Shown: positions 6,806 through 64,000 of the stretch, piece by piece
Position numbering within the stretch: the stretch's first letter is position 1
Layout of the letters: each line of letters opens with the position of its first letter
From: Blattamonas nauphoetae
Taxonomy: Eukaryota > Preaxostyla > Oxymonadida
DNA length: 64,000 nucleotides
Direction: 5' to 3'
Assembly (NCBI GenBank): GCA_033064195.1
Contig: JARBJD010000086.1
Span: 124,001 to 188,000 of the forward strand
Notes under the pieces: model-generated
What the model was told of the DNA's origin: nothing
Databases searched by the model: none
What the model saw: the letters and a program-made list of their open reading frames with translations, nothing else
Made by a program: the position numbers and the translations under genes

Positions 6806-9800
6806 TCAGAGTGGGTTCAGTGGAATGTCATTCGCTTTCTGTGCGAGACTCGGATTCTTCGATGCTTCTTGAGAAAGAAACGATTCGATCTCTGACAACG
6901 ATGGACGGTCCTTTGCAACAGGACTCAAACATTTTGTGATCATCTCGGCCATCTCTTCCGACGATACCAGTGCCATCAGAGGAAGAAGACCTGACGAAAG
7001 TTGCCGATGCGCGCTGAGGGCATCAATCTCCCCAAAGGGAACCTGTCCTGTCTCAATCGAGAACAAAACAAGGCCAAGACTAAAAACTGCCGCTTTCGTC
7101 AAATCAACTCCTTCTGTCCTCATCGTTCCATCCCGATTTACTAACTCGGGCGCCATCCAGCGAATCCCATCAAACGACGTCACTGAACTCTTTCCCTGCA
7201 CTTCCTCTGACACGAACATTGACTGTTCCGCGAGCAATGGAGTGATGTTCGAGGTGGTGAGAGGAGCAGCTGAAGGGCGAGTGGCTGGTGTTCCATGCGG
7301 CTGTGTATTCTGTTGGAACACAATTCCATCGTTCTTGTCAAACATGATCAGATGAGGCGAGAGGAACCCAAGAATCATCGCATTCTTGTCTTTCGAAGCA
7401 ATCTTCAACAATCCATTTCCAATCTCCCAACCAACTCTTCTCCTCTTTCGAAGAGGTTTGTGAAGCGGAGTGTGGAGTCTGTTGTACAGCGTGTCCATTT
7501 TGTTCCCCATCACCTCTTCCACTTTCTCATTCTGCTCATTGAATCGTATCGCAGGGATCAGTTGCACAGCACAAGCATTTACTAATGACCCATCTGACGT
7601 GTCACATCGAATAGTGTCCGAATTCTCACCCAACGCTTTCAGACCAGTGTACGTCGATTCATTGCCCATCAAACGGACATCGGTGCCGAATCCAAATTCG
7701 TCCTTCACTTCAATCTTGATCTCGTCCACATTGTCGAGTTCTTTCTGTGAAGCTAACGATCCATTCTTCGAAGTGTTCTTTCGTCTTCGCCAGCATATAA
7801 ACACAATCACGATCAGCAGAATGAGAGAGACAGACAAGACAATCGCAACAGGAAGCCACCATTTCATGTTCTCTTTGACAGACTGGGCAATTCGATCCTT
7901 AGAGTTCGCTTGGATGAGGAATGATTGGGTGGTTTGTTCATACTCACCAAAAAGCAGACGACCTCGCCATTCCAGTGACGATTCCAGAGATGACAGAGAC
8001 GATTGGGAGAGTGTCAGAGAGATCGATGATTCGGTGAAGGAAGTTGTGGTGTCCAGATCCAGTTTGATTCGTTCCGCTTTTCCAATCGTCTTCTGCTTCG
8101 ACACTTCGAACACTTCCAGAAACAGATCACACGGAATCAACGTCATTCCGATCATTTCGAGAGTGACTGTTTTGTCTTTCTTGTTAAACGAGGATGTGGA
8201 TGTCGGAGAGAGAGTTGGGATGAAGAAAGGTGAATCCACATTCACATCAGCTCCCGACAAGAGGCATTCATCGTGTGACAGCCACAAATGGCAATGTTTT
8301 TCGGATGAACCATCACCACTACCCAGACTCCCAATTTCAATCTCACCACCTTCTGAGCATCGAATGTTCTGTCGAGTTGATGGGAATGACGACACGCCTG
8401 GCGAGTTGTCAAAGAAAGTCGAGGAGACAATTGAGAGAGATCCTCCCTTAATGTTGATTGCTCCTTGACGAAGATGAGACAGAACTGTGTCGGTGATGTT
8501 CGTCGTGCTGTTTGAAAACTGGAGAACTCCAGTGTCCCATTCACACAACACTTCATCAGTGTTCGATTCATTCCGAGTTTTCACACCAACAATCGATCCA
8601 TCGCGAAGAACGATCGTCGAGTCAATCCCTGACAGAAGAACGAATGATGGAACTATCGATTCAATCACAACATCAACATCACGAATCTCAAACAATCCAG
8701 ACGAGACGGAAATCATTCCTTTCTCTCCCATCGATGCTGATGACGGAATGATCAGTGTCGGTTCGGTCGATGTTCCCTTCTCAACAACAACAATCCCATT
8801 CGACAGACACACAATCGGCGACGAGAGTGTCGCGTTCAGAATCAGTCGCAGCGAAACGTCCGACGCGCCAACATTCGATGCAATCTTCCAAGCAGAGTCC
8901 ATCGAACTGCACGGCTCGTCCTTCCTTCCACACAATCGAGAAGAATCGGAGGAAGACGAGTCGAAGAACACAACAATCTGTTTCGGTCGTTTCTCAGTCG
9001 TGAAAGTCACAGAAGAGTCAATGAAAACAATTTTTCCAGATTCTTCATTTGAGATCGACACGATTCGATAGTCGGTGTCGTATTGAAGAGAATCGGTCCA
9101 TCCAATCGCCATTTCAGCACTCGTTCCCGAACTTGAGTTTGTGATGACAACTTCGAATGAATGGGAGGAGTCGAGAACAACCACGAATCGTTCGTGAGAG
9201 GGAAGGTCAGTTCCACCAAGAGTCACAGAGAATGTCGTGTTCAGGTCAGAGCAGAACGAGAACGACGCGGTGTCAACACGAGGCGGATGAGGAATCGAGA
9301 ATGTCGACATCTCCAGAATCGCTGAAGAAGAATCGCTCTTCAGAGAATGAACAGACAACACATCTCCAAACTCCACACTCGACACATCAGAGGTCGAAAT
9401 CGGAAGTGTCAATGTCAGTTCTGTTTCAGACACAGTCGAGCATTGGAGTTCGAATTGTGTGCCTGAAGTTGGTGAGGTAACTTGCAATCCCACAGAAAAA
9501 GATCCATCAAAACATCGACCACCAAAAGTGAGAGTCACAGTTTCGAGAGAGGCTGCGAGTACAGGTGAGATTGATATGAGACGAGATGGTTCTTCGGGAG
9601 TGAAAAATGAGAGATCAGAATTATGGAGTAGAGTTGATCCATCGAGGGACACTGAATCGACAACGTATTCATATCCAAACAGTACTTCTGCTGAAGAGAG
9701 CGGAAAGAACTTGATTGTCTTCGAGCAAGATTCACTCGGGTCAGTAGAATCACTTCGGACTGTGATCGTTCGTTTGTCCGGCTCAGTGTTAGCTCCCATC

Positions 9801-10724
9801 AATGATGTTGATTTCGGCTGTCCAGTCACATGCATCGCATAGTCGGTGTTCGCTTTCAGTGCTCGGCCTGTCATCGTCAGCGTCGCTTCCGTTTTCTGAG
9901 CGTCTGAGAAATCCCCAATCGTGATGTCTGTGATCCGAGATGGTTCAGAAATGGTGAACGAGTTGGGATTCGCGTCGATCAGGAGAGGTGTGGAGGGTGA
10001 GGAAGTTGGGATGACAGAGAAGAGAGTGTAGGTCGTTCCGAAAGACATAACTGGCGAGTCCCCAAAAATTGAAACAGATGCCACACTCGAGTTCCTCTCA
10101 TCACCCACTCCATCCGAAAATGAAAGATCAAACCAGGGACCACTCTCCGAGTTCAGTCTCACCGTGTACGATCCTTTCGCGATCTGTCGACCACGAAGAG
10201 TCACCGATGTTGTGTTCCCACTCGAGTCCAACTCGACCCAAATCCCAACAATTCGCGCTGGCTCAGCTGGAACCTCGAAAGTTGCTGTCTCTTCAACTGC
10301 CGTTCGAACTGTCGGAACTGTCGAAATTGCCAGTGATGTGATTCGGTAGCGACGAGAATATTTCATCAATTGGGCGACAGGGAAGAGCTCGATCGACAGT
10401 GTGTGAGTTGTCAACCCAGCGTCACCAATCACTCCATCAAACGTGTCAGACAGCGTGATCGGAGTCGTCCCAGCAATTACATTCCCATTTTTATCAATCT
10501 CATCCAGCGATATCGAGAATGATTCGCCCGCTGGCAATGCTTCTCCAGTCAGAACAACAGCTCCAGATCGCTGCAATGGTCCAACAAGAGAACACGATGC
10601 GGTTTTGATCCGAGGAGGAGCAGCAGGTGTTTCGAATGTGATCGACCCAACCAGCGAGCAGTGCAGAGACGACGATGTCAGACTCACCACTGTGTACAGT
10701 GTTCCATACTTCAGCGTCGATCCT
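6806..10724 (-). pseudogene. C-terminal segment of an interrupted giant surface protein (beta-sandwich modules, membrane span, pseudokinase tail)
   Basis: About 1,306 codons, entered from the composite insertion at 10725 and ended by TGA. The extracellular part is a chain of modules of about 90-100 aa, each with strands like VTLRGRQI, GSYTVRLNSESGPWF and TTYTLFSVIPTS; an Ig- or IPT-like fold is inferred. A membrane span near residue 960-990 (WWLPVAIVLSVSLILLIVIV) is followed by basic residues. The roughly 300-aa cytoplasmic tail ends in a kinase-like C-lobe (GIRWMAPELVNRDGT, then VFSLGLVLFSIETGQVPFGE and a terminal RPSL). The region where HRD and DFG should stand reads LGFLSPHLIMFDKND, so catalysis is not expected. 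The local ATG gives a chance start inside the insertion. Confidence 0.8.
10720..10724. repeat. Target-site duplication, left copy (ATCCT)
   Basis: ATCCT here and at 15586-15590 flank the composite insertion. The unbroken paralogue near 49825-49840 has a single ATCCT at the matching position. Confidence 0.85.
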
Positions 10725-11101
10725 TGACACAAACCAGTGCTCATCAACAGATTGAGTGAGTCCCTGGGTCCGTTAAAGACGGTCCATGGGTTGGCCGATC
10801 AACAAACAAAATAATCAAAGTTTTATCTGTTGAAAGAAAAATCCCGACCCGAGAGGTTAATCATCGAGCCGGTTCTGCCCAAGTGGGGGCGGTTGATGAG
10901 CAAAAGGATGGGATCAACCCATTACTCCAGAAAAGCCCCAACGGGGATGAAAAACTGGAGAAACCGAAAAGTCAGAATGACATGAAATGAAAACCACCAA
11001 AAGGTTACTACTTAAAACGCCGCAGTGCTAAAGACATACCGATGTCCTCTTTCAACTGCTGTGTGACAGAGAAAGAGGTTGATGAGCACTGGTTTGTGTC
11101 A
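10725..11101. repeat. Small chamber of composite element 1, bounded by 23-24-bp inverted repeats
   Basis: It begins TGACACAAACCAGTGCTC and ends with the inverted copy of that tip. The interior is unique and has no coding frame. The left arm extends to the motif GGCCGATCAA near 10793-10802, where its match to the far right end of the element stops. Confidence 0.75.
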
Positions 11102-11106
11102 AGGAT
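11102..11106. other. Central 5-nt spacer AGGAT between inverted tip copies
   Basis: AGGAT is the reverse complement of the ATCCT flanks. Read on the minus strand the junction is right tip, ATCCT, left tip, which is the order expected in a circularised element that kept one flank. Confidence 0.75.
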
Positions 11107-11155
11107 GTCGCAAGCTCCATCCGACACATAACCAGGGCTCATCAACAGATTGAGT
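11107..11155. repeat. Internal copy of the right tip of composite element 1
   Basis: It matches the last 48-49 bases of the element (15537-15585) in inverted orientation, and the match ends abruptly after GATTGAGT. Confidence 0.75.
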
Positions 11156-11628
11156 TTTGAAAAGGACTAAAATCAAGTGGAAAGTAAGAATGAGAATTAG
11201 AAAAGAAGAAATCTTCCACGACTCTACCCACTTGCTCCCCTTTTACATCAACAACGGCCGTGCTTCCTCCAAAGCTGGCACCAGCAGTTGGCGAGCGAGG
11301 AGTCTTATCGGACGATTAGGACTGGAGCGGAGTAGATATCGAAAGCGGTGGTGGTTTCGCCAACCACGTGAAATGACCATTCGGGAAACTCCACTCACAT
11401 ACAAATGGTGAGGAGCACTCGACTCGCTACCGGAAGCGAGGAGATCTCCCGAAGGCTTCGCATATCCCAATGCGGAACGAGTGAGGAGACAACTCGACTC
11501 ACTTTTGAAGTCTTCTGAATCAATAACGCTATCGTCGTTTCGTTCAGTTCAATCACAATTCATCCACGCCATTCCCCACTCTTCTCGAATCCTGACTTCG
11601 ACGATACAGGCAAACTCATTTCTGTCAG

Positions 11629-12688
11629 TCATCTTCTTTCAATCCCATTTTCCTGCATATCGAACACTTCCCCGAAGGTAGAACATGGAATCACCGTTGT
11701 GCCTATCTTTGACACTTTACATCCCGCTTTCTCGGTGCTCAGTTCGCTTGTATGCGATGAAGAGAGTGTTGAGACGAAGAACAGCGAGCGAGAAATCACT
11801 TCTTTTGATGTGAGTGAACAATCACTCGTCGAGATCCACGATGAGAGCCTCTCCATTCCAGCTCCTCCATACAGATTCCCAATCTCATTCTCTGCACTTT
11901 CTGAGAAACGACTGTTGTGACAGAGCGCACTCGTTTCAATCGTCAGGATCCCTCCCTTCACATATATCGCTCCTTGCGAGAGACGTGCCAGGTCGGTCTG
12001 TTTAATGGCTGTCTTCCTTGTTCAGTAAGTTCAGGATTCCACTCTCCCACAAACAATTATCTGCTTTCGTCGTCAGCTCGCTCGAAGTTGAGCATGATGA
12101 ATCCCAAGGTGACATCCTGAGATTCCTGTCATTCATCTTTCTTCAAATCCTGACATCGATGAGGGAAATGAAAGTAGTAGTTCCGTTGTCGGTCCTTCTT
12201 CAATCCAAACTTCACGACCGGTACTCATTTCTTGCTTGTTCTTTCTGTGTGGAGATGGAAATGATCGAGAGCGACAGCGACAAAGGCCTAATCCCTTCCA
12301 GAATCGTTCATCCATCCTCAATCGAGGAGCAATGACGCACGTGATCCCTTCTGAACACATTTGATTCGAACGACGAGTTAGAACTGACGCAATGACATTG
12401 TCAGGACGAGAGACAGTCGAGTCTGATGTCGCTGCACAGAAGATGGTCTCTCCCTGATCCGTTTCAGTCGCTTTGATCGATGTGATTGCGTTTGGCTTCT
12501 ATTTTCGAAGTGACTGTTGCGATGAAGGAGTACGAGGAGTTCAGTGTGATATTCAGTGATTCTCCAACAATCAGACCGGTCTCAATCAACGTCACATGGC
12601 AGTCGGTATGGAGAGAGTTCAAGTTCTCGAACTTCAGATCGGAAATTGCTGGACAGAACGGTATCTTGACCGTGATTTCATTTTCCAC
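11629..12688 (-). pseudogene. Decayed surface-protein gene fragments carried as cargo
   Basis: Two minus-strand stretches are clearly related to the host surface proteins. At 11629-11961 the string KIGTTVIPCSTFGEVFDM lines up with MTLIPCDLFLEVFEV of the intact genes. At 12464-12688 the string NITLNSSYSFIATVTS lines up with the FVVVLDSSHSFEVVITNS strand pair. They keep the gene's order and strand but are far more diverged than the paralogues in this window, with stops and frame changes between them. The cargo therefore looks older than the insertion event itself, or was copied from an already dead gene. Confidence 0.65.
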
Positions 12689-15491
12689 ATGAACTCCATT
12701 CGATTCTGTTCGGCTTCCTTCAGGCGTGCATTCTTCTCCAAATGTCAGATGATCTGATTCGACTTCATCTCCAACTGTAACACGGTTCTGCAGTGTGTGC
12801 TACTCAGAATCTCCGCTTCCAACGACTATGAATCTGTTGAGCCTTCTCTGCGTTTGTCACTCAACTTCACAACGGACCAGAACACACTTTCAACGCTAAG
12901 ACCCTCCTACTTCATTAGAATCTCAGCTCCTTCGAAAGTTGATGATTTGAAAGGATTTGGGTCTAAAGACTGGAACGACCCTTCCATTGAGGTTTGAGGA
13001 TAGATAATCGTTGCTTGTCAACTATAGTAGAATTGTCTCAAGCTTTCCGGTATTGGAAGGTGTGTACTCTCATGTTGCCCCGCTGCTGGACGGGATGAGA
13101 GAACACAACCAACATCGCCATGCGATGGATCTGGCGACAAAGGAGGCAATGCTCCGTGAGACAATTCGAGCGATCTTTCTCTGATCGACTCTTGTTGGAG
13201 CCTTCCAACGCACGTCTGAATATTGAGGAGCCGTTGTACGAATAATTACGCACGTCCCACCCCTCCAACAGTTCAGCGTGTTTTTCATTTGATGAAAAGA
13301 GCATGCAGACTGGCGTTCTTCTTGTTGAAATCTTGCTGGATTGTTCAACCGACAGTGTGTCGCTCTGCGAAGCTTGTAGCACTGAAACGCCGTCAAACTA
13401 GAGTCGGTTTGCGAATTAGAATGGATGTCCAGCTCCCGCCAAATGTTCTAAATGTTTTCTATTTGAAGACATTCACATGGTCGATCTCGACTGATAATTT
13501 GCTAATCGGTGCCAAGTGGCCTGTCAGAAACTGGATGGAAATACTTCCGGACGTGATCGAGTCTTCAATTCGAAGTCTCACTTGCGGATTGGCGTGGTTC
13601 TTGATGAGCTCCTGCTTGTTTGTTCATCCGACAGTGTGGTGCTGCGAGCATCTCGTGTCCTCTTCTTCTCTGCCGGCAACGATGACTATTCATGTCGAAC
13701 CTAGTTATCCAGCAGTACCATTGGCAGGATGGTCTGACTATAGGAATTTCTGAGAGTGTCTCTCTTCAAAGAGAGTATGAGGACTTCCCAAATCCAGATG
13801 TCTCGGACGAGAGTATGATGGTGTGTCTCTTGTTGGTGTTGGATAGCTCTTCATCGTTTTGCACGGATTATTCCCACGCGAGTGGATGGAAGAGGATGGC
13901 TGATCAACTGACCCGCATCTTTCTTTGTTTTTTCCCGAGTTCGCTTGATCAGGGTGTGTCTACTTCATGCTTGGAGAGATGGTGTTCTGTACTGACACTA
14001 CTTCACCCAGATCTGAATCTCTTCTTTGAAACAATCAACTCTCTTCTTCGAAGCTTGAGGAGGCCACTTTACGTGCTCAAATGAGCCAACTTGTGAACGG
14101 CTGAGATCGATTTGGACTCATCCTTTAAATGAAGCAATCCATCGCGAACGTGCTGAATAATCTACCCTGTGCGACTCGTATTCCGACGATGTGCCCTCTA
14201 TTCGAGTTTACAGGGCTGTTTTGTTTGTCGATTGGATGATAAAGATTGTGCGATGGGTCTGACGTGAATGAGGGTGAATTGTCGTATTCTATCAAGAAAA
14301 TCGTTGCCGATGGGATTTTATACGTCTTTGAGAGTGCAAAATCCATTTGATTACGAAATGATCGTCCGCTGGAAAGTTCATGATGGGAACCACTTATGAA
14401 CTGGTGTTGAGATATTCCGCAATGAAGAGTACTTGGATTTAGAAGGGACGATGTAAATGCGCGGAGAAGATTGATCAAATTGTGGATAACTCACCGTTGG
14501 ATCTCCGACTCAGTATTTGCGACTTGATCATATTCTTGTATGATCTGCGGTCGATTTCTTGGTATCTTATGGCTGTCTGGAGTGAGTTGCAGTTATTTTC
14601 CAAGACTATTCGTACGCGCAACTGCTTTCTCATCTCACCTCGATCTGTCCTTGTGGTGGGTCCGCCAGCGAGCACCAGAACGGTTGACGATCGAGAAACT
14701 CGGCACTTCCATGCTGGACGTGGCCAGCTATCGGTATTGAGAGGTATCAATCTTCATTTCGTCCTTTCCTTTTCCACTTAGAGCAACATGAAAGTTCGCC
14801 TCCCGAAATGAGCAGAATATGGTTCTGGCGTCAAAAAACAGGCATTGGTCCAGAAAGATCCACCTCCATGTTGATCGTCCTGGTACGGAGTAGGTCGTGA
14901 TGATCATCATCTATTCCACGGGGATCTTCAAATGAAGACTTGGTAATCTTTCCTTTTTCCTGTGTCTGCCTCCTCCTCGTCTTAAATAGCGGCAGTATCA
15001 TTTATCTTGTTTCATCTTTTTTGGTTGCTGCATCAATCTGATCTTCTTCTCAAGAAGTTGACGACGTCCTGTCTCTTCGTCCAATTTAGCTTGTTTACCA
15101 GGTCCATATGTGATTTCGAAGAATCAGAGCAATCTAGTTCACGTTCTCCACACTATTTTGAGTGTTCAGAAAAGTTATTGAGCCAGAGTAGCCATCAGTT
15201 CGTAACAGGAATGAAATCTTTGAGATCGGATCAGTGAGATATAGAAACATCTGATGTGATTATCTACTTCTTGAAGCAGTTGTACGATTCCTTCTCCTTC
15301 AAGTCATTGCTGCTTTCAACAATTTTGTCCATTTGATATTGGATGTTTGTGGCGTAAACAGTTGAAAACTGAAATGAGGTATTTCGAAAAGATTCTGCTT
15401 GAAAGTTGAATCAACGATAATGAATTCGAGGATAGTTTCAGATAGTTTTGCCGCTAAAGACGAGGAGGTCTGTTGCTTCAGTTTGTTATGT
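12689..15491. other. Remainder of the large chamber, no recognisable gene
   Basis: About 2.8 kb in which no open frame shows a family I know. Composition is similar to decayed coding DNA. More relics of the surface-protein gene may be hidden here, but by eye I could not align them. Confidence 0.4.
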
Positions 15492-15585
15492 TTGATCGGC
15501 CAACCCATGGACCGTCTTTAACGGACCCAGGGACTCACTCAATCTGTTGATGAGCCCTGGTTATGTGTCGGATGGAGCTTGCGAC
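15492..15585. repeat. Right terminal arm of composite element 1
   Basis: An inverted match to 10739-10802 (inner part), with an extra outer tip ending GCTTGCGAC that is shared only with the internal copy at 11107-11155. Confidence 0.8.
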
Positions 15586-18211
15586 ATCCTCCGAAAACAA
15601 CAACCTCAACTGATCCAGCTTCTGAAGAAACGAATGACACTTCAATCTCAATCGGTGTTGATCCACTTTCTTTGATCGTCAGATTCATCGCTCCAACAGG
15701 CATTCGTAAAGATTCCAGCGTCAACATCACATTGTTCACATTTGATGTCCTCAGAGCAGCTTTCACATCAACCAATGTCGGCCCAATTGGTGTTTTGAAT
15801 GACACTGAATCACACTTCATCTTTCGATCACCCTTCGTCACTGATGCAACAGAATACGATGTGTCGAACTGCATCTCTCCAGGAACACTCGCTGAGATCG
15901 TTCCATTTCCTTCTGTCGATGAACTGAAGTCAACCAAAAACCAGAGACCACCAACCAGTTCCACTTTGAACCCACTTTCAATCGGCAGGTCTGTCCCAAC
16001 AATCCCAACTGGGAATGAAGACGACGCGCAAGTGAGAGGAGCAGAAATCGATTGGACGATTGGACCAGAAGGAACTGTGAAGGACAACTCTGGAGTGATG
16101 ATCAATTCGTTCGATCCTCCACTCCCACCAACCAGCGTGTATGTCTTCAGGAATTCAAGATGAGTCATGTTCTCTTCCCATCCCACTTTGAACGTGATCC
16201 AACATTCGGACTCGCTTTTTACATCAATCTCGCCATCACTCTCAATCTCATCCCCATCTGACGACGTAACAATCATCCATCTCGTGTCTTGTTTCAGCGC
16301 GAATCCTTTCACAATCACAATCACGCCATCCTTCGAATCCATCAGTGAACACGATTGAATCGATGACAGGCGAGCCGGTTCGTCTGGTGTGGAAAATGAG
16401 AGATCAGAATTCTGCAGCAGGGTTGATCCATCGAGCGACACAGAATCCACAATGTATTCATATCCGAACAGCAACTCCGCCGAATCATGAGGATAGAATT
16501 TGATTGTCTTCGACCCAGATTCACTTGGATTCGAAGAATCACTTCGGATTGTGATCGTTCGTTTGTCTGGCTCAGCATTCGCTCCCATCAACGATGTTGA
16601 TATCGGGCGTCCTGTCACAAGCATCACGTAGTCCGTGTTCGGTTTCAGTGCTCGGCCGATCATCGTCAGCGTCGCTTCCGTTTTCTGAGCATCTGAGAAA
16701 TCCCCAATCGTCACGTCAGTGATCCGAGATGGTTCGGATATGGTGAATGAGTTGGGAGTCGCGTCGATCAGGAGAGAGGTGGAGGGAGAGGAAGTTGGGA
16801 TGACAGAGAAGAGGGTGTATGTTGTGTCAAACAAAAGAACTGGCGAATCGCCAAAAATTGGAACGGATGTGACACTCGAGTTCCTCTCATCACTCATTCC
16901 ATCCACAAACCAAATCTCAAACCAGGGACCACTCTCCGAGTTCAGTCTCACTGTGTACGATCCAGGCGCAATCTGTCGTCCTCGAACTGTGATCGAAACG
17001 ATTTTCCCACTCGAGTCCAACTCTCCCCAAATCCCAACAATTCGCGCTGGCTCATCTGGAGTTGTGAATGACAGACCGTTTCTCACATCTACATTCGTCG
17101 TTCCCCTCAGCACAGATGTCACTGTGTATTTCGTTCCATATTTCAGTTCGGCCGACGTGATCGGATAAAGAGACACCGATGTCGAAAGTTCTGTCGAACT
17201 TGCTAATGTCAGAGAGATGTTCGTTGGTGTCCCGCTCGCATCCTTCACAAGCATCGAATACGAACCAGAGACTAACTTTGTTCCTGTGAGATCAATTTTG
17301 GTGGTGTTTGGGGTGACCAGTGATGCATCAGCACCATGAATTGATGATTCAAGTTTGTAGCCCGCCAAAACTGCTGCTTCGAGAGAATATTCGTTCGTTG
17401 ACGGAAGCACAGCCGTTGTTGTTCCTGTTCCTGTTGTCGAGCCTGGCGATTGGAATGACACGAACACGAGACGAGGAACAAGACCGCCAGACAGAAGCAC
17501 ACTCATCACTCCACTCACAGCATTCACTGTTGTGATCGTCACTGTCGATGTCGTCCCCGAGTGAGACACTGAACACGACACAATCGCAAAACCAAGAGTG
17601 ACTTGCTTGAGAAGAGTGGAGTCTGTTTCAAAAATTGAAGAGCCATCAGTGTAGAAAAGCGTTGGCACCGCTGAGGATGAATCACACCTCGTGACATTCT
17701 CTGCAATTGCTGAGGTCGTTGTCCTAAGATACATGTCTGATGCGGTTGGTGGGTTTGTGTCAACGTTGTTACGGAAAACGACGTCAGTGAACTTGATCGA
17801 GGCAGGAGTCTCGGAAAACACAGCTCCTCCCATAAGAGAGGCCACACTGTCAACGATGGCTGAGTTAGAAACCGACAGCGAGCTGATGCTGACATACACG
17901 AATGCCCCTCCGGCATAGGCTGAGTTTCCCCGAAATAGACAAGAATTGACAGCAAATGATTGGATGTGCATTCCCGCAATCGCTCCACCAGCGTTCTGGG
18001 TAGAACAGTCCGAAAAACTTGATTGTGAGATTGTGAGTGTCGAAGCAGGGCTGACATTCTCGCCGGGTCCCCGAAAGCAGACAGCTCCTCCATTCGCAGA
18101 AGTACCCGTTGCAGAGCAGTCGTGGAAGGCGCATCGTGAAATGGTTAGATACGCTGTAGTGTGATTCAAAGAGATCGCTGCTCCACCAACGAAAGTCGTT
18201 GACAACCAGGT
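15586..18211 (-). pseudogene. Middle segment of the interrupted giant surface protein (beta-helix end and beta-sandwich modules)
   Basis: About 870 uninterrupted codons lie between the MITE and the composite insertion. The first 170 residues are beta-helix repeats with GGA motifs (NGGAVCFRG, NAGGAIAG, YAGGAFVYV, MGGAVFSE), of the chlamydial Pmp / pectin-lyase-like kind. Then come beta-sandwich modules, including GIWGELDSSGKIVS and SSIQSCSLMDSKDGVI. The frame enters from the MITE side in register (MTWLSTTFVGGAA) and leaves at VVVFGG in register with the segment beginning at 10719. Apart from the two insertions, nothing disables this stretch. Confidence 0.8.
18207..18211. repeat. Target-site duplication CAGGT, left copy
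   Basis: CAGGT here and at 18660-18664 flank the MITE-like insertion. Confidence 0.75.
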
Positions 18212-31453: not shown

Positions 31454-34220
31454 ATGACCATTCACAACGCAACAGGTTTTCTCTTTTCACTTTCACTCGT
31501 CACCATTTGAAGAAAAAGACATTATCCGCCATCCTCATGATCAATCACTCATCATTACAAGAGTTGAGAGGAAAACAAGTGGCGGAAGAGCCTATGCAAA
31601 ATACTATCGCTTAAACCTCCGAACGAAATCTTTATGCGCAGACAAAAAAGATTTTCAATGTCTCAGTCTGGATAATGATGGGAGCTTATGTCGCTTCTAC
31701 GGTCGTGGAACCCTCTCTTCTTTCGATGCTCATAAATGCCGGTTCAACCCATCATCCACACAAACAATATCCGCGCTCATTGAAGCTGGCCATCGGAGGA
31801 CAATCGAAGAAGCACAGAATCATGAGAGAGATTCTCAACTCTCTCAGGTTGAGCAGTCAGTTCTTGTCTTCTTTGCCCGATCCGGAACACCATTCAGGAC
31901 GGTTGAAGACAATGGGTTTGTAAAAATGGAAGAATCGCTCATCAAACTTGGTCAAAGGTTTCCCAACAAGCCCACTTCTGAACTTCTTCCTCAAACATCT
32001 CGATTCTCACTCTCCCGGAACATGGTTAGGCTATCGGAACAACTTCGAAAAACAACTTGTGATATTACATTCACTGTGTCAATGTGCGTCGATGGGGTGA
32101 CACCACCAGCTGGACACGAACACACACACGTGTTCGTTCTTGCAGATCCAAGTCAACAATCTTTCCCTCGTTTTCACTCTATTCGGGAAATATCAGCGAG
32201 TGGCATTGATTCTGCCACTGCTATCCTTGATGAAGTGACGAATCTCAATGAAACTGGTGTGCGGATCCACTGCTTCGTTTCGGATGGAGGCTCTGGATAC
32301 GTATCCGTGTTTCATCCGAACACTGACGCGAGAAGGGAGATGCTGCTTCAGCCATTGTCCGAGTTGTATGGTTTCGTACCACTTCATTTCCAGTGTTGGG
32401 CCCACAAACTAAACACAGCCCTTCGTCATCTTCACTCTCGATCAGTTCTCCTTCGAGCATCACTCGAACTTCTTTCCACTTTTTCCGAGACTGTTCCAAC
32501 CTCCAAAACAGATGTCCCCAATCCACCAAAGTTCATCGGCTCGCGTTGGATTTCGTGCGGCCCGATTGTTCAATGGTTCAGAGCGAACCGTCAATCGCTT
32601 TCGACAATGATGGCTCTATCCGTGAGTGAACTCCATTTCATGGACCTCCTTCACGACTTGATTAACCCTCTCTTCAACACAGTCGGCATTTTAGAGAGGA
32701 ATACCATGTCGATTGCTAACTCACCACCACTCCTCACAAACCTTGTTTATCTGTTGTGCTCCCTTGCACAAAGTGTGCACTCTGTCTCATTTCAATGGGC
32801 CAATCTCATCAACGACTTGGCCACCGAAGTGTGTCGACTCACTCTCCTCGATGACGACGGGTCCGCAGCCATTCTCGGATACTCTCTGACATCGTGTGGG
32901 AGAGAGGCGTATCAAGGCAGTACTTTCTTGACTTGTGTGGATGGTCTGATATCAGAATGGCACCGACCTAGTCAGCCAGAACACTGGGATGAGGCATTCA
33001 TCAACAGGCTTCGAACTAAGTTGCAACGGATCACAAAGAATCGAGAGGAATCCGAAGTAGAAATGGAGAGTGAAGAGGATGATGAGGATACAGTGGCAAT
33101 CCATTCAATTGAACAAGCTCGACAGAGAAAGAGAGAGACTTGGAGAACTTGCCTTGACGAGAGGTCCTCGAAGAGGAGAAGTGATGATGACGAAATCATT
33201 CTACTCGTACAACCAGGTGATTCTGTCTCGAAAGGAGTCGAAGTAGCTGTTGAAATTGATGAAGTGGTCCGATTCACCCGTCCACTGGCCAGTTCCTTCA
33301 TTCCGCAATTAACACAAACCAGCTCAATGGTCGCAAACCTCGAAATTCTTCTTGAAACAACCTTTCCCAAGATGATGAAGACCGACATTGACAGGAATTT
33401 GTCAGCCTATGAAGTGTGGCTCGATGGAGGAGTTGTCCCTAATCAACATCGTTTGATGAGAAGCAGTCTCGACTTTTGGAAGAAGGAAGTCGAAACTGAA
33501 GACTCGGAATTCTATCATCTTGCATTTCTCGCAGACACGTTGCTCCGTACTCCTCCAACCCAAGCAGCAGCCGAGAGGACAATCAAGGTTGTGAAGCGCC
33601 ATGCTTCCCTCAAACGTCCCCGGTTGGCATCCAAAACGAATGATGCTATTCTACGAGTTGCCTCCCTCTCCGAATCCACTCTGAGTCTGCCCCCAGTTGT
33701 GAAGACCAAACGAGATGAGGACCCGATGCAGAAGGATTGGCGTGTGAATTGTGACTCTGACACAAAATCAATTCGAACTGATGGAAGATCGCTGGATGAG
33801 ATTCGATTTGACGCGAGATATGGGAGATCTTGGAAGAGAGCCGAGTCTGTCACGAATGGTTCCTGCTTCTACCACTCCATTCTTCTTCTCCTCCGAGATG
33901 TTGACATCTCCATCTCTGATCTGAGAAGACAAACGGTGGAATATATGAATCAGAACAGAGAGTCGATCGATGTTGATACGTTTCTACACGACTGGGAGAA
34001 CAGAATGAGCGAGAACCTTCTCCAAACCACCCCAGTTGAGATGTGGGAAATAGTTGCTGTGTCCCACCTTCTCCAGAGACAGATCATCATCCATTCCAGT
34101 TGCATGAGGCCGATTGCAACGATGCTTCAACCATCACAAGTCGTTCGCCAACAACCAGCTCTTCGTGTTGCCTATGTTAATGGGAATCATTATCAGCCGA
34201 TGATTCCAGTAGCCAAGTAA
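31454..34220 (+). CDS. hAT transposase fused to an OTU-type cysteine protease domain
   Basis: Exon 1 is 31454-31475, the intron 31476-31512 (37 nt, GT-AG) and exon 2 31513-34220, giving 909 aa. Without the intron the frame is open from 31458 with no ATG until 31926. The N-terminus has a Cys/His cluster (FQCLSLDNDGSLCRF, FDAHKC) in the position of a BED finger. hAT hallmarks follow: FFARSGTPFRTVEDNGF, VSMCVDGVTPPAG, CFVSDGGSGYV, HFQCWAHKLNTAL and the C-terminal dimerisation block TPPTQAAAERTIKVVKRH. After an acidic linker, residues about 775-905 form an OTU-like domain: SVTNGSCFYHSILLLLRD (catalytic Cys) and YVNGNHYQPM (catalytic His). The protease could process or deubiquitinate; substrate and activity are not known from sequence. 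The frame looks intact. Confidence 0.88.
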
Positions 34221-34335
34221 TTGAGAGAAGTGTGATTCATTTCATGTTGATCAAAATGTTGATTTGGGTCAGAACTGTTTTAGAATGGAAAGTGAAAGAG
34301 TGTTCAGAGAGTGATTCAGATTCCAAGACAGCCAA

Positions 34336-35512
34336 TCATATTCCCATTCTCATCTCCCACATCCCCATTCTCATCTCATTCGTCCCCATTCTCATCTCCC
34401 TCATCCCCATTCTCATCTCGATCATCCCCATTCTCATCTCCCTCATCCCCATTCTCATCTCGACCATCCCCATTCTCATCTCCCTCATCCCCATTCTCAT
34501 CTCGACCATCCCCATTCTCATCTCCCTCATCCCCATTCTCATCTCCCTCATCCCCATTCTCATCTCCCGCATCCCCATTCTCATCTCCCGCATCCCCATT
34601 CTCATCTCCCGCATCCCCATTCTCATCTCCCGCATCCCCATTCTCATCTCCCTCATCCCCATTCTCATCTCCCTCATCCCCATTCTCATCTCCCGCATCC
34701 CCATTCTCATCTCCCGCATCCCCATTCTCATCTCCCGCATCCCCATTCTCATCTCCCGCATCCCCATTCTCTTCTCCCTCATCCCCATTCTCATCTCCCT
34801 CCTCCCCATTCTCATCTGCCACATCCCCATTCTCATCTCGACCAATCCTATTTTCATCTCTTGCTTCCCCATTCTCATCTCGACCATCCCCATTCTCTTC
34901 TCCCTCATCCCCATTCTCATCTCCCCCATCCCCATTCTCATCTCCCTCATCCCCATTCTCATCTCCCCCATCCCCATTCTCATCTCCCGCATCCCCATTC
35001 TCATCTCGACCAATCCCATTCTCATCTCTTGCTTCCCCATTCTCATCTCGACCATCCCCATTCTCTTCTCCCTCATCCCCATTCTCATCTCCCGCATCCC
35101 CATTCTCATCTCCCGCATCCCCATTCTCATCTCCCTCATCCCCATTCTCATCTCTTGCTTCCCCATTCTCATCTCGACCAATCCCATTCTCATCTCCCTC
35201 ATCCCCATTCTCATCTCCCCATCCCCATTCTCATCTCCCGCATCCCCATTCTCATCTCGACCAATCCCATTCTCATCTCTTGCTTCCCCATTCTCATCTC
35301 GACCAATCCCATTCTCATCTCTTGCTTCCCCATTCTCATCTCGACCAATCCCATTCTCATCTCTTGCTTCCCCATTCTCATCTCGACCAATCCCATTCTC
35401 ATCTCTTACTTCCCCATTCTCATCTCGACCAATCCCATTCTCATCTCTTGCTTCCCCATTCTCATCTCGACCATCCCCATTCTCTTCTTCTCCATCCCCT
35501 TTCTCGTTGTCT
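34336..35512. repeat. 18-bp minisatellite, about 65 copies
   Basis: The unit is CATCCCCATTCTCATCTC with a few variants (CGC, CTC, CGACC and CTTGCTTC at the junctions). Toward the 3' end a 36-bp double unit containing CTTGCTT and CGACCAAT is repeated about five times. Because 18 is divisible by three and the unit has no stop, several frames on both strands stay open for hundreds of codons (PILIS, SPFSS, HSHLP, and REMRMGM in antisense). These are probably not proteins. The array starts 115 bp after the hAT stop codon. Confidence 0.9.
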
Positions 35513-35831
35513 CCTACCTCTTCAACATCTTTTCCGTCGATTTTCTAGAACAGATAAAGTGGTGATGGGATGAAATGGAGTCGTTGCTTGAGTTCAGTGA
35601 ACCTAGAAACGACGTAGGAAAGAACGGGGAGAGTCGTAGACGAAAGAGAATACCGGCATGATGGTGGGAATAGAAGATATCGGAAGTTCGAAATAAAAGG
35701 GACTCAAGATAACGATTCATGAGAACAATGGACTGGAAAAAAAAGAAACAGAAAGAGCACACGAGAGGATGTTGTGTGACGCGAGTCGGCAGCTCCCCCA
35801 ACAACGCCATGTGATCTGGGGAGAGGAGTGT

Positions 35832-37000
35832 GATCGAGCTGGCGAACAACTGAAGGGAAGGAGAATAAGAGCGAAAATACTTAAGGACCGGAGAGAGCAC
35901 ACCTGTTTGCGCTGCATAATGCCAGGGATCGGCGACGCCAACGATCGGGGATGAGTGAGGGAGGGGGCACGATCGAGCTGGCGAACAACTGAAGGGAAGG
36001 AGAATAAGAGCGAAAATACTTAAGGACCGGAGAGAGCACACCTGTTTGCGCTGCATAATGCCAGGGATCGGCGACGCCAACGATCGGGGATGAGTGAGGG
36101 AGGGGGCACGATCGAGCAGGAGTTCACCTGATAGGAAAGAGATAAAGTGATGAAAGAATGAGAAATATGGAGAGCACACCTGTTTGCGCTGCATAATGCC
36201 AGGGATCGGCGACGCCAACGATCGGGGATGAGTGAGGGAGGGGGCACGATCGAGCTGGCGAACAACTGAAGGGAAGGAGAATAAGAGCGAAAATACTTAA
36301 GGACCGGAGAGAGCACACCTGTTTGCGCTGCATAATGCCAGGGATCGGCGACGCCAACGATCGGGGATGAGTGAGGGAGGGGGCACGATCGAGCTGGCGA
36401 ACAACTGAAGGGAAGGAGAATAAGAGCGAAAATACTTAAGGACCGGAGAGAGCACACCTGTTTGCGCTGCATAATGCCAGGGATCGGCGACGCCAACGAT
36501 CGGGGATGAGTGAGGGAGGGGGCACGATCGAGCTGGCGAACAACTGAAGGGAAGGAGAATAAGAGCGAAAATACTTAAGGACCGGAGAGAGCACACCTGT
36601 TTGCGCTGCATAATGCCAGGGATCGGCGACGCCAACGATCGGGGATGAGTGAGGGAGGGGGCACGATCGAGCAGGAGTTCACCTGATAGGAAAGAGATAA
36701 AGTGATGAAAGAATGAGAAATATGGAGAGCACACCTGTTTGCGCTGCATAATGCCAGGGATCGGCGACGCCAACGATCGGGGATGAGTGAGGGAGGGGGC
36801 ACGATCGAGCTGGCGAACAACTGAAGGGAAGGAGAATAAGAGCGAAAATACTTAAGGACCGGAGAGAGCACACCTGTTTGCGCTGCATAATGCCAGGGAT
36901 CGGCGACGCCAACGATCGGGGATGAGTGAGGGAGGGGGCACGATCGAGCAGGAGTTCACCTGATAGGAAAGAGATAAAGTGATGAAAGAATGAAAAACAG
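35832..37000. repeat. 139-bp satellite array, two unit types
   Basis: Nine unit starts (GATCGAGC) lie at about 35832, 35971, 36110, 36248, 36387, 36526, 36665, 36803 and 36942. One type continues TGGCGAACAACTGAAGG, the other AGGAGTTCACCTGATAGG; both share the second half (CTGCATAATGCCAGGGATCG). The order of types is 1-1-2-1-1-1-2-1-2. Minus-strand frames such as MASPIPGIMQRKQVC are by-products, since the unit length is not a multiple of three. Confidence 0.85.
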
Positions 37001-48800: not shown

Positions 48801-51800
48801 GGCCGAAGAGAGCGGATAGAACTTGATTGTCTTCGAGCCAGATTCACTCGGGTTCGAAGAATCACTTCGGACTGTGATCGTTCGTCTGTCAGCTTCAGTG
48901 TCGGCTCCCATCAATGATGTTGATTTGGGCCGTCCTGTCACATGCATCGCATAGTCGGTGTTCGCTTTCAGTGCTCGGCCGATCATCGTCAGTGTCGCTT
49001 CCGTTTTCTGAGCGTCCGATAAGCTCCCAATCGTCACGTCAGTGATCCGAGATGGTTCGGAAATCATGAACGAGTTGGGATTCGCGTCGATCAGGAGAGG
49101 TGTGGAGGGTGAGGAGGTTGGGATGACGGAGAAGAGAGTGTAGGTCGTTCCGAAAGACATAACTGGCGAATCGCCAAAAATTGAAACAGATGCCACACTC
49201 GAGTTCCTCTCATCACTCACTCCATCCGAAAATGAAATATCAAACCAGGGACCACTCTCCGAGTTCAGTCTCACCGTGTACGATCCTGTCGCAATCTGAC
49301 GGCGACAAAGTGTCACCAATGTCGTGTTCCCACTCGAGTCCAACTCGACCCAAATCCCAACAATTCGCGCTGGCTCAGCTGGAACCTCGAAAGTTGCTGT
49401 CTCTTCAACTGCCGTTCGAACTGTCGGAACTGTCGAAATCGTCAGTGATGTGATTCGGTAGCGACTCGAATATTTCATCAATTGGGGAACTGGGAAGAGA
49501 TCGATCGATAGTGTGTGAGTTGTCAACCCAGCGTCACCAATCACTCCATCAAACCTGTCAGACAGCGTGATCGGAGTCGTCCCAGCAATCACATCCCCAT
49601 TTTTATCAATCTCATCCAGTGACATCGAGAATGATTCGCCCGCTGGCAATGCTTCTCCAGTCAGAACAACGTCTCCAGATCGCTGCAATACTCCAACAAG
49701 AGAACATGATGCAGTTTTGATTCGAGGGGGAGCAGCTGGTGTTTCGAATGTGATCAGCCCATCCAGCGAGCAGTGCAGAGATGACGATCTCAGACTCACC
49801 ACTGTGTACAGTGTTCCATACTTCAGCGTCGATCCTCCGAAAACAACAACCTCAACTGATCCTGCTTCTGAAGAAACGAATGACACTTCCATCACAATTG
49901 GCGTTGATTCACTTTCTTTGATCGTCAGACTCATCGCTCCAACAGGCATTCGGACTGATTCCAGAGTCACAATCACATTGTTTACGGTTGATGAGCTCAG
50001 TGACGCTTTCACATCAACCAATGTTGGCCCAACTGGTGTTTTGAATGACACAGATTCACACTTCATCTTTCGATCACCCTTCGTCACCGATGTAACAGAA
50101 TACGATGTGTCGAACTGCATCTGTCCAGGAACACTCGCTGAGATCGTTCCATTTCCTGTCGTCGATGAACTGAAGTCAATCAAAAACCAGAGACCACCAA
50201 CCAGTTCCACTTTGAACCCAGTCTCAATCGGCAGGTCTGTCCCAACGATCCCAACTGAGAATGACGACGACGCGCAATCGAGAGGAGCAGTGATCTGTTT
50301 GATGATTGGACCAGAAGGAACTGTGAAGGACAAATCAGGCGAGATGATCAAGTCGCTCGATCCTCCTCTCCCACCAACCAGCGTGTATGTCTTCAGGAAT
50401 TCAAGATGAGTCGTGTTCTCTTCCCATCCCACTTTGAACGTGATCCAGCATTCTGACTCGCTTTTCACATCAAGTTGGCCATCACTCTCAATCTCATCCC
50501 CATCTGATGAGTTCACAATCATCCATCTCGTGTCTTGTTTCAGAGCGAATCCTTTCACAATCACAATCACTCCATCCTTCGTATCCGTCAGTGAATAAGA
50601 TTCGATCGATGACAGGCGAGTTGGCTCGTCAGGCGTGGAAAATGAGAGATCAGAATTCTGCAGAAGAGGTGATCCAGAGAGGGACACAGAATCCACACTG
50701 TATTCATATCCAAACAGCAAGTCGGCCAAAGCATGTGGATAGAACACAATTGTCTTCGACCCAGATTCACTTGGATTCGAAGAATCACTTCGGATTGTGA
50801 TCGTTCGTTTGTCTGGCTCATGCTCAGTGTTAGCTCCCATCAATGATGTTGATTTCGGATGTCCTGTCACAAGCATCGCATAGTCGGTGTTCGCTTTCAG
50901 TGCTCGGCCGATCATCGTCAGTGTCCCTTCCGTTTTCTGAGCGTCTGAGAAATCTCCGATCGTCACGTCAGTGATCCGAGATGGTTCGGAAATCATGAAC
51001 GAGTTGGGATTCGCGTCGATCAGGAGAGGTGTGGAGGGAGGTGAAGTTGGGACGACGGAGAACAGAGTGTATGTGATTCCGAATGACAGAATTGGTGAAT
51101 CGCCAAAAATCGAAACTGATGCCACACTCGAGTTCCTCTCATCTCTCACTCCATCCGAAAATGAAATATCAAACCAGAGACCACTCTCCGAGTTCAGTCT
51201 CACTGTGTACGATCCTGTCACAATCTGTCGACCACGAAGTGTTACCGTTGTCGTGTTCCCATTTTCATCCAATTCGACCCAAATCCCAACAATCCGCGCT
51301 GGCTCGTCGGGTGTTGTGAATGACACTCCATCCAACACGGCCAGACTCGTCGTGTCCCTCAGCACTGACATAACTGTGAATCTCGTTCCATACTTCAGTT
51401 CCGCTGAGCCGATCGGATAAAGAGACACTGTTGTGGAGAGTTCGGTCGAACTTGACAATGTCAGAGAGAGGTTCGTTTCAGACCCGCTCGCATCCTCAAC
51501 AATCATCGAGTACGAACCAGATCCAAACTCGATCCCTTTCAGATCAATTGTGGTGGTGTTTGGATCGATCAGTGATGCGACAGCTGCAAGAATAGATTCA
51601 GGTTTGAACCACCCCAACGCAGCAGCTTCGACAGAATACTCGTTCGTTGACGGAAGAACTGACGTTGTTGTTGTTCCTGTTCCTGTTGTCGAGCCTGTCG
51701 ATCCGAATGACACGAACACGAGACGAGGAACAAGCCCGCCAGACAGAAGCACACTCATCACTCCACTCACAGCATTCACTGTTGTGATCGTCACTGTCGA

Positions 51801-61800: not shown

Positions 61801-64000
61801 ACGGATTCGAAAGATGGATTGATTGTGATTGTGAAGGGGTTGGCTCTGAAACAGACCTCGACATTGATGATTGTGGAGTCATCAGATGGGGATGAGATTG
61901 AGAGTGATGGCGAGATTGATGTGAAAAGCGAGTCCGAATGCTGGATCACGTTCAAAGTGGACTGGGAAGAGAACACGACTCATCTTGAATTCCTGAAGAC
62001 ATACACGCTGGTTGGTGGGAGAGGAGGATCGAGTGAATTGATCATCACTCCAGAGTTGTCCTTCACAGTTCCTTCTGGTCCAATCGTCCAATCGATTTCT
62101 GCGCCTCTCGATTGCGCGTCGTCTTCGTTCTCAGTTGGGATTGTTGGGACAGGCCTCCCGATTGAGACTGGGTTCAAAGTGGAACTGGATGGTGGTCTCT
62201 CGTTTTTGGTTGACTTCAGTTCATCGACAGAAGGAAATGGAACGATCTCAGCGAGTCTTCCTGGAGAGATGCAGTTCGACGCATGGTATTCAGTTGCATC
62301 AGTGACGAAGGGTGGTCGAAAGATGAAGTGTGAATCTGTGTCATTCAAAACACCAGTTGGGCCAACATTGGTTGATGTGAAAGCATCTCTGAGCACATCA
62401 ACTGTGAACAATGTGATGTTGACGCTGGAATCTGTGCGAATGCCTGTTGGAGCGATGAGTCTGACGATCAAAGAAAGTGAATCAACGCCAATTGTGATGG
62501 AAGTGTCATTCGTTTCTTCAGAAGCTGGATCTGTTGAGGTTGTTGTTTTCGGAGGATCGACGCTGAAGTATGGAACACTGTACACAGTGGTGAGTCTGAG
62601 ATCGTCGTCTCTCCACTCCTCGCTGGATGGGTCGATCACATTCGAAACACCAGCTGCTCCTCCTCGGATCAAAACCGCATCATGTTCTCTTGTTGGAGCA
62701 TTGCAGCGATCTGGAGACATTGTGCTGACTGGAGAAGCATTGCCAGCGGGCGAATCATTCTCGATGTCACTGGATGAGATTGATGAAAATGGAGATGTGA
62801 TTGCTGGGACGACTCCGATCACGCTGTCTGACAGGTTTGATGGAGTGATTGGTGACGCTGGGTTGACAACTCACACACTATCGATCGATCTCTTCCCAGT
62901 TCCCCAATTGATGAAATATTCGAGTCGCTACCGAATCACATCACTGACGATTTCGACAGTTCCGACAGTTCGAACGGCAGTTGAAGAGACAGCAACTTTC
63001 GAGGTTCCAGCTGAGCCAGCGCGAATTGTTGGGATTTGGGTCGAGTTGGACTCGAGTGGGAACATGACTTTGGTGACACTTCGTGGTCGACAGATTGGGA
63101 CAGGATCGTACACAGTAAGACTGAACTCGGAGAGTGGTCCTTCATTTTCGATTTCATTTTGGGATGGAGTGAGTGATGAGAGGAACTCGAGTGTGGCATC
63201 AGTTTCGATCTTTGGGGACTCACCAATTCTGTCGTTTGGAATGATATACACTCTCTTCTCCGTGACCCCAACTTCCCTTCCCTCCACACCTCTCCTGATC
63301 GACGCGAATCCGAACACGTTCATGATTTCTGAACCATCTCGAATCACTGACGTGACGATTGGGGATTTTTCGGATGCTCTGAAAACAGAAGCGACGCTGA
63401 CGAAGACTGGCCGCGAACTTGAACCGAACACCGACTACGTGATGCATGTGACTGGACAGCCGAAATCACCGTCATTGATGGGAGCGAACACTGAGCCAGA
63501 CAAACGAACGATCACAATCCGAAGTGATTCTTCGGACCCGAGTGAGACTGGATCGAAAACCATCAACTTCTATCCTCACTCTTCAGCAGAGTTGCTGTTT
63601 GGATGTGAATACATTGTGGATTGTGTGACTCTCGATGGATCATCTCTACTCCAAAATTCTGGTCTCTCATTTTCCACTCCCGAAGAGCCATCTCGTCTTG
63701 TCTCAATATCTCCTGTTCTCGCCGCTTCTCTCGAGACAGTCACTCTCACTTTTGGTGGTCGATGTTTTGATGTTGGTGACTTCACTGTGAACTTACAAGT
63801 CACTTCACCAACACCAGGCACACCTTTCGAAGTCGCATGCTCGACAGTATCTGAAACAGAACTTACATTGACACTTCCGATTTCGACATCTGATCTGTCG
63901 AGTGTGGAGTTTGGTGATGTGTTGTCTGTTCTTTCTCTGAAAAACGATTCTTCTTCAGCGATTCTGGAGATGTCGACATTCTCGATTCCTCATCCGCCTC
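58843..64000 (+). CDS. Giant surface protein, open to the end of the window (partial)
   Basis: From ATG 58843 (MFLLWINLSTLSSCRDG, signal peptide) every checkpoint I tested (60601, 61081, 62101, 62341, 63001, 63421, 63961) is in the same register. No stop was met in the stretches I read, so at least 1,719 codons lie in the window. The conserved block FHTDGHHIVSQKVEIEG, the beta-helix region (GGAAISLD, DGGAVCFWG, GGGAVNVYF, IGGALAHQ) and many beta-sandwich modules follow in the same order as in the gene at 45822-53555. The membrane span and pseudokinase tail should lie beyond 64000. It runs in the same direction as the divergent relative upstream and opposite to the tandem minus-strand copies. 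Confidence 0.85.
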   Translation, partial: MFLLWINLSTLSSCRDGATLSPSDYHPTLLPLSEALRNQQFSIENEAKNEVNKFELAEGSFHTDGHHIVSQKVEIEGRNTMIVHSNQSPQFSSTNNEQGNPSISIQKSHPSIFIVMNSSLTLKNLILSVWKGGLVCFVDSSDVGLVGCRIGSSVECSPLVVSSPTLSRSTTITMIGCCHSSSESWVVHPFVGVDRNILPNDHSLTTVKQSDQLSEGSISVIGCDLSFSTWLFGRSRPLLEMNTNTTNEFRCPDGQPNEEICTTTLVSSSFVNVSSLSLGSGIPTNRPRLTQKVIGCSMLRSTDHFRGTALRDMNMGGNVLCSNSSFAHCSSASNEDINQGGRIVFYQTVASTQTFTSCTFRHMTCTSTEHVGGAAISLDRTLACVTISLCAFHDCNATDKSADGGAVCFWGTGETANPASTITISQSSFTDCSTADGGGAVNVYFIQSLSLDDCFFWGNSAHIGGALAHQSMRSSTISNSSFEENQATYGGGAVHFNNAVPFLLTDLLFRINFVTRVSGGSDISFYALQSSNVPEANITRCDTTSPKPAIWFSGDGSTDSTRLYPVTLGFAILSYSVSHSETESTVTITTVNAVSGVMSVLLSGGLVPRLVFVSFGSTGSTTGTGTTTTDVLPSSNEYTLEAAALAGFKLDSSIVGAVASLINPNTARIELTGTKLGSGSYSMLVKDASGKQTNMSLTLSSSTELSTSVSLYPITSAELKYGTNYTVTSVKRDTTSVLVRDGLSFTTPDEPARIVGIWVELDVSGNTTLVTVRGRQIAKGSYTVRLNSESGPWFDISFLDGVRDERNSSVSSVSIFGESPILLFDTAYSLFSVTPTSSPSTPLLIDANPNSFLISEPSRITGVTIRDFSDALKTEATLTMTGRALKPNTDYVMHVAGHPISASLMGANTEPDKRTITIRSDSSDPSGTGSKTIKFYPLPSAELLFGYEYIVDSVSLDGHTLLQNSDLSFSTPIEPARLLSIKTCSLTDSKDGLIVIVKGLALKQTSTLMIVESSDGDEIESDGEIDVKSESECWITFKVDWEENTTHLEFLKTYTLVGGRGGSSELIITPELSFTVPSGPIVQSISAPLDCASSSFSVGIVGTGLPIETGFKVELDGGLSFLVDFSSSTEGNGTISASLPGEMQFDAWYSVASVTKGGRKMKCESVSFKTPVGPTLVDVKASLSTSTVNNVMLTLESVRMPVGAMSLTIKESESTPIVMEVSFVSSEAGSVEVVVFGGSTLKYGTLYTVVSLRSSSLHSSLDGSITFETPAAPPRIKTASCSLVGALQRSGDIVLTGEALPAGESFSMSLDEIDENGDVIAGTTPITLSDRFDGVIGDAGLTTHTLSIDLFPVPQLMKYSSRYRITSLTISTVPTVRTAVEETATFEVPAEPARIVGIWVELDSSGNMTLVTLRGRQIGTGSYTVRLNSESGPSFSISFWDGVSDERNSSVASVSIFGDSPILSFGMIYTLFSVTPTSLPSTPLLIDANPNTFMISEPSRITDVTIGDFSDALKTEATLTKTGRELEPNTDYVMHVTGQPKSPSLMGANTEPDKRTITIRSDSSDPSETGSKTINFYPHSSAELLFGCEYIVDCVTLDGSSLLQNSGLSFSTPEEPSRLVSISPVLAASLETVTLTFGGRCFDVGDFTVNLQVTSPTPGTPFEVACSTVSETELTLTLPISTSDLSSVEFGDVLSVLSLKNDSSSAILEMSTFSIPHPP

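Follow-up and report, generated by a model that had tools for sequence, protein, structure and literature searches.

We analyzed a 64,000-nucleotide window of the gut oxymonad Blattamonas nauphoetae (contig JARBJD010000086.1, positions 124,001 to 188,000 of the forward strand), in which a surface-receptor-like gene on the minus strand is broken by an insert. The insert spans positions 10724-15589 (4,866 bp), with the minus strand as its sense strand, and is very probably a non-autonomous DIRS1-like tyrosine-recombinase retrotransposon. When the two flanks were joined, a single open frame of 2,182 amino acids (aa) ran over the junction, which bears out a first-pass annotation of this DNA that had described a gene-splitting insertion. 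The coordinates of all features are collected in Table 1.

The order of parts in the window was ATCCT (10720-10724), 377 bp, AGGAT (11102-11106), 4,479 bp, and ATCCT (15586-15590), exact to the base as first described. Three pairs of inverted arms were found: 10720-10748 with 11078-11106 (29 nt, 100%), 11102-11155 with 15537-15590 (54 nt, 100%), and 10732-10802 with 15492-15562 (71 nt, 99%). The centre at 11078-11155 is the internal complementary region (ICR) of a DIRS1-like element. This 78-nt region sits 354 bp from the sense 3' end of the element, and both element tips are joined in it with zero bases between them. Its halves of 25 nt and 53 nt were 100% complementary to the tips, which upholds the earlier description of the centre as an inverted junction of the element's own ends. 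The inverted terminal repeats (ITRs) at 10726-10810 and 15482-15569 were alike at 95%, and such repeats were also present in the copies L073 and L074.

Empty sites, which the first-pass annotation had proposed for comparison, were found within the window itself. The joined flank sequence of 401 bases had 25 matches in the assembly, two of which were the window locus in two halves. The gap-free matches at 62353-62753 and 49636-50036 are paralogous empty sites, not alleles.

The proposed genome search with the centre and the tips was performed on the 88.3-Mb assembly of 837 contigs. The centre pattern of 28 bases, with up to 3 mismatches allowed, gave 45 matches, 42 of them without a mismatch, and the reversed pattern used as a control gave 0, a result far beyond chance. 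Therefore, the centre was not formed at the window locus. All 45 matches read AAGGATGTCGC, the same letters being part of the search pattern. The earlier idea that the central 5-mer ties the junction to this very locus also failed, since AAGGATG was present in the centre at 30/30 left-end loci whose flanks visibly differ. A query with the element's first 441 bases gave 40 nearly whole matching loci, including the window's own, with 40 of 203 candidates scored. From end to end, both chambers and the centre included, one copy (C206) shared 99.75% identity with the window element, and another (C253) was 96% identical over the full length; the flanks of both differed from those in the window. Because these full-length copies and the constant centre occur with differing flanks, the whole unit including the centre moves as one, and the junction cannot be taken as a product of events after this insertion. 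The 99.75%-identical pair speaks for recent movement. Among the three causes offered earlier, an inherent feature of the family agrees with these copies, and inversion within a tandem dimer and gap repair do not.

The termini were read at 30 left-end and 30 right-end loci, the latter drawn from 40 listed. At every right-end locus the element ended in GCGACATCC, the terminal bases of which are ATCC. The left tip starts with TTTACAC, with TTGACAC in the window and C206 copies and TTCACAC in L030, and ATCC stood before it at 2/30 loci and was missing at 28/30. The outer ATCCTs, formerly taken as a target duplication, do not represent one: the element supplies ATCC at 15586-15589 and the target supplies ATCC at 10720-10723, and the element limits are therefore 10724-15589. 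The fifth base, T, is derived from the element on the left and from the target on the right. Among 19 copies with both ends, there was no common duplication length; the flank match was 0 in 11 of them and 3 at most.

The flanking bases showed a preference. The three bases left of the element were T at 19/30, C at 17/30, and C at 15/30 loci (binomial p 4e-5, 6e-5, and 1e-3, with the pooled flank composition as the reference), and the base just right of it was T at 20/30 (p 8e-6). There was no preference at the fourth base on the left (A 11/30, p 0.17) or at the next two on the right (T 9/30 each, p 0.44). Insertions favour targets that resemble the circle junction TCC–T (the dash marks the joint), and this preference is significant but loose. 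The window target already contained ATCCT, equal to the circle core ATCC–T. A recombinase that joins the circle junction to a similar sequence would predict such a target preference. As a separate observation, 10 of the 30 left flanks (L001-L030, one of only 189 bases) matched surface-receptor proteins (12 proteins used, E <= 1e-6), a raw count without a background rate, for which no excess over chance is claimed.

The ICR and the ends of a copy also vary together. A 4-base stretch of the terminal repeat occurred in four variants among the 30 loci, and the same variant was present in the copy's own ICR at 29/30. Shuffling gave a mean agreement of 10.3, and 0 of 10,000 shuffles reached the observed value; the copies are related, so this test overstates their independence. 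Over 8 bases, the agreement was 27/30 (exceptions L019, L020, and L029). The left tip equalled the ICR at 29/30 loci (exception L030), the tip itself being nearly invariant. Furthermore, the tip of a coding relative (C49) differs again, reading TTTGACAC, and is matched by its own ICR. Shared copy-specific variants would follow from re-templating of the ends by the ICR, and this pattern in the copies suggests that the ends may be copied from the centre.

Coding relatives were searched for in the same assembly. PF00589 gave 62 recombinase matches, and PF00078, for which 150 of 392 candidates were scored, gave at least 150 for reverse transcriptase. For at least 28 of the 62 recombinase matches, a same-strand reverse transcriptase lay upstream, and in 24 of these pairs the distance was 1,503-1,630 bp; the pairing used 32 of the 150 reverse transcriptase rows, chosen by eye, and is a lower bound. 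Equal open-frame lengths (1,027-1,160 aa) for both domains in 5 of the 28 pairs (C189, C373, C168, C212, and C342) suggest a fused frame, and the other 23 pairs differ. A recombinase query gave at least 150 assembly matches, some of which were pieces of a single gene.

Window positions 11107-11352 were matched at 89% in C49, C4, C189, and C767, leading into a recombinase frame, and in the first three of these a reverse transcriptase match lay 1.62 kb upstream. An 811-bp stretch of the C49 relative contained the left tip, an ICR with ATCC+TTTGACAC, and the recombinase C-terminus, with the recombinase stop 71 bp beyond the ICR. Its DNA was 87% identical to the window over 638 aligned bases, the alignment reaching 11352. 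The window element has the same recombinase C-terminus but with two in-frame stops, and this remnant is a stub. In the C590 relative, an ICR, a recombinase (Pfam E 2.5e-5, 24.6 bits, under the cut-off of 27.1), and a YLDD-bearing reverse transcriptase (E 1.4e-25) followed in succession. Among solved structures, no match to the C590 recombinase fragment appeared within E 0.1, and the C590 reverse transcriptase fragment returned 12 database matches. These all belong to PF00078, and a single one is named ('hypothetical protein'). As these matches are uninformative for a tree, the family placement rests on anatomy and gene order. Dam methyltransferase gave 24 matches, 13 of which were at most 1 kb upstream of a same-strand recombinase match (compared by eye). 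In C233, C270, C512, and C712, a weak Dam match (E 0.001-0.004) lay between the reverse transcriptase and the recombinase.

Several points weigh against assigning the insert to DIRS1-like elements. The Dam matches beside recombinases were all below the Pfam cut-off, the three above it were not beside a listed recombinase, and the C49-type relatives gave no Dam methyltransferase match. The window copy contains neither a reverse transcriptase nor an intact recombinase; it is therefore immobile alone and is classed by its termini, ICR, and stub. The 811 bp of C49 cover the left tip, the ICR, and the recombinase end, and C49 is the one coding relative in which the left tip was read. An exact TCC preceded the left tip at 6/30 loci. 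The published model, as given in excerpts of a survey of DIRS1-like elements (PMC3266345, the source of all later statements under this accession), requires a 3-bp identity between junction and target, which most loci lack. The usual terminal motif of DIRS1-like elements is NTT, whereas the core here is TCC(T); the sense strand of the window element begins with GGA and ends with CAA, and no NTT was found there. NTT is usual but not universal, being present in 23/28 published elements (PMC3266345).

Other kinds of element were weighed against the same evidence. A cut-and-paste DNA transposon with a 5-bp target duplication and a locally made inner junction (tandem-dimer inversion or gap repair) would account for the duplication-like ATCCT at the flanks and for its complement in the centre. 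The family copies refute this, as far as the assembly is right: the centre is constant at 30/30 left-end loci with 45 matches in the genome, ATCC ends the right tip at 30/30, 28/30 left tips are not preceded by it, and the whole unit stands at 99.75% identity at another site (C206). We see hardly any likelihood in such an origin. A terminal-inverted-repeat DNA transposon with a 5-bp duplication was also rejected as a class for the insert, direct duplication of variable target bases not being found. The perfect inverted repeats that bound each chamber might instead mark two independent small inverted-repeat elements of 377 bp and 4,479 bp lying side by side, and independent chambers were the finding that the first-pass annotation had set against a single insertion. 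Among at least 98 matches to the first chamber plus the centre, all 40 long ones span both and the other listed ones are short tip matches; 40 of 203 candidates were scored. Both halves of the centre were present at 30/30 left-end loci, and both chambers recur in two further whole-length copies (C206 and C253), so that a pair of separate elements is virtually excluded.

A Crypton-like DNA element that a tyrosine recombinase moves as an excised circle, without RNA, agrees with the abundance of tyrosine recombinases in the assembly, with the lack of a target duplication, and with a circle junction that fits a circular DNA intermediate. However, the published model gives the ITRs and the inverted junction the task of rebuilding ends from a truncated RNA; excision would probably not need them, and the relatives carry a reverse transcriptase beside the recombinase. 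A Crypton-like origin is thus very improbable, and the insert is treated below as a DIRS1-like retrotransposon.

For such a retrotransposon, the element transcript would lack the outermost bases of both ends. During reverse transcription, the ICR, the complement of the right tip joined to the left tip, would serve as the template for the missing bases. The ICR would also hold both ends together as a splint, closing a circle whose junction reads GCGACATCC–TT(T/G)ACAC. The tyrosine recombinase would have to act in trans and may come from relatives, present in this genome, that encode both reverse transcriptase and recombinase. This recombinase would join the circle junction to a similar genomic site (here ATCC–T), and the whole element would be added without a target duplication. 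A similar role has been proposed in the literature: in excerpts of PMC5633606, the ICR is complementary to the sequences where the left long terminal repeat starts and the right one ends, and the restoration of missing ends is its proposed function.

Some copies carry sequences that resemble host genes. In the C822 copy (L073), a 107-aa stretch shared 55% identity with a host frame (E 5e-37), and two weaker pieces were collinear. The stretch was 92-100% identical over its full length at no fewer than 12 places with short frames of 115-134 aa, and it reached at most 73% identity in long open frames, which range from a few hundred aa to several thousand and include the interrupted gene, with 150 of 1,090 candidates scored. 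From the sequence likeness, capture from a host gene would be the simplest reading of the passenger fragments. The further idea that this family, carrying surface-receptor fragments and landing in such genes, might provide mobile donors that diversify them through gene conversion or template switching is unlikely. Two other observations concern the interior of the window element. A direct repeat (13304-13377 and 13583-13656) of 74 nt is 74% identical, and positions 14032-15400 are matched at 72% by C336:17334-18692 and C179:213809-215168, both outside the listed tip matches. Elsewhere in the window, positions 34001-36000 have a very strong GC skew (-0.46), and long open frames overlap there on the two strands, which may mark a tandem repeat array.

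Table 1. Features of the window and of the L073 copy (positions in the window unless another copy is named; strand given as +, -, or. for none)
Feature	Position	Strand	Evidence
Whole element, non-autonomous, very probably DIRS1-like, 4,866 bp	10724..15589	-	Constant tips at 30 + 30 loci; empty paralogous sites; C206 copy 99.75% over full length
Inverted terminal repeat, ICR-proximal (sense 3') end	10726..10810	.	95% to opposite end of C206 copy, corresponding to 15482-15569; 71 nt at 99% inside the window
Inverted terminal repeat, ICR-distal (sense 5') end	15482..15569	.	Window arms and C206 comparison
Terminal extension of 20 nt, sense 5' end (left-extension type)	15570..15589	.	Within element; matched by ICR, not by other end; fixed terminal ATCC at 30/30 right-end loci
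ICR half complementary to + strand left tip 10724-10748	11078..11102	.	25 nt, 100%; tip and ICR agree at 29/30 loci
ICR half complementary to + strand right tip 15537-15589	11103..11155	.	53 nt, 100%; repeat variant in common at 29/30 loci
Degenerate 3' stub of tyrosine recombinase gene, region of presumed catalytic tyrosine	11224..11358	-	Collinear with C49 recombinase C-terminus; two in-frame stops before the end
Degenerate fragment like host surface-protein gene family	11632..12021	-	39% over 139 aa, E 1.7e-15, against a host open frame in this window
5' part of interrupted host gene	15590..18205	-	97% to BLNAU_11230; joined-flank open frame
3' part of interrupted host gene, kinase-like C-terminus	6806..10723	-	Joined-flank open frame
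Empty paralogous target site	62353..62753	-	375/401 bases identical, no gap at junction
Second empty paralogous target site	49636..50036	+	364/401 bases identical, no gap at junction
Degenerate surface-receptor-family-like fragments, L073 element	L073 1042-2327	-	Likeness to host frames

The first-pass annotation could name no family with this plan, and DIRS1-like retrotransposons have it. Their excerpted description comprises ITRs, extensions on the left or right, two ICRs near the 3' end that overlap at the circular junction, and integration at a short identical genomic sequence without target duplication (PMC3266345). The plan has been known since 1985 and does not define a new kind of structure: the title of Cappello 1985, cited in PMC5633606, names the internal circle junction, and the excerpts of the latter report circles in an agnA deletion strain. 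A known mechanism thus solves the puzzle of the inner junction and saves the pursuit of a new element class. The novelty is modest: an oxymonad with clean DIRS1-like structure, and a derivative whose host-gene-like passengers are unusual. In the survey excerpts, the presence of DIRS1-like elements in Excavata was uncertain, most copies being too degraded (PMC3266345), whereas this oxymonad has dozens of copies with a clean ITR/ICR structure. The agreement of ends and ICR at 29/30 loci, together with junction-like targets, offers a natural test of the ICR model. Searches limited to open-licence papers listed no description of this family or of a gene-carrying DIRS element, which is weak evidence of novelty.

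The window element resembles DIRS1-like elements such as DIRS-1 of Dictyostelium discoideum in its ITRs, its terminal extension, an ICR near the sense 3' end, and the absence of a target duplication, and its relatives likewise carry a recombinase and a reverse transcriptase. Its length of 4,866 bp compares with 3,974-6,283 bp in 28 published elements, and its ICR of 78 nt is slightly under the published 85-130 (PMC3266345). Unlike the published elements, the window copy is non-autonomous and bears host-gene-like sequence. Its extension is at the sense 5' end only, an arrangement that the excerpts give for AcasDIRS1 (Acanthamoeba) and AmDIRS1 (Allomyces) alone, the likeness being drawn from descriptions; AmDIRS1 also has a GC-rich terminal motif, as here (PMC3266345). 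The hosts of these two belong to Amoebozoa and Fungi, unlike the oxymonad studied here.

Pack-MULEs are also non-autonomous carriers of host-gene fragments. They are DNA transposons with target duplications, unlike the DIRS-type element. If the host-gene-carrying, non-autonomous branch is confirmed, DIRS elements would be able to spread host sequence as Pack-MULEs do. PAT, Ngaro, and VIPER combine a tyrosine recombinase with a reverse transcriptase, as do the relatives of the window element. PAT and Ngaro have split direct repeats at their termini. Ngaro and VIPER are described in the survey excerpts as being without a methyltransferase (PMC3266345).

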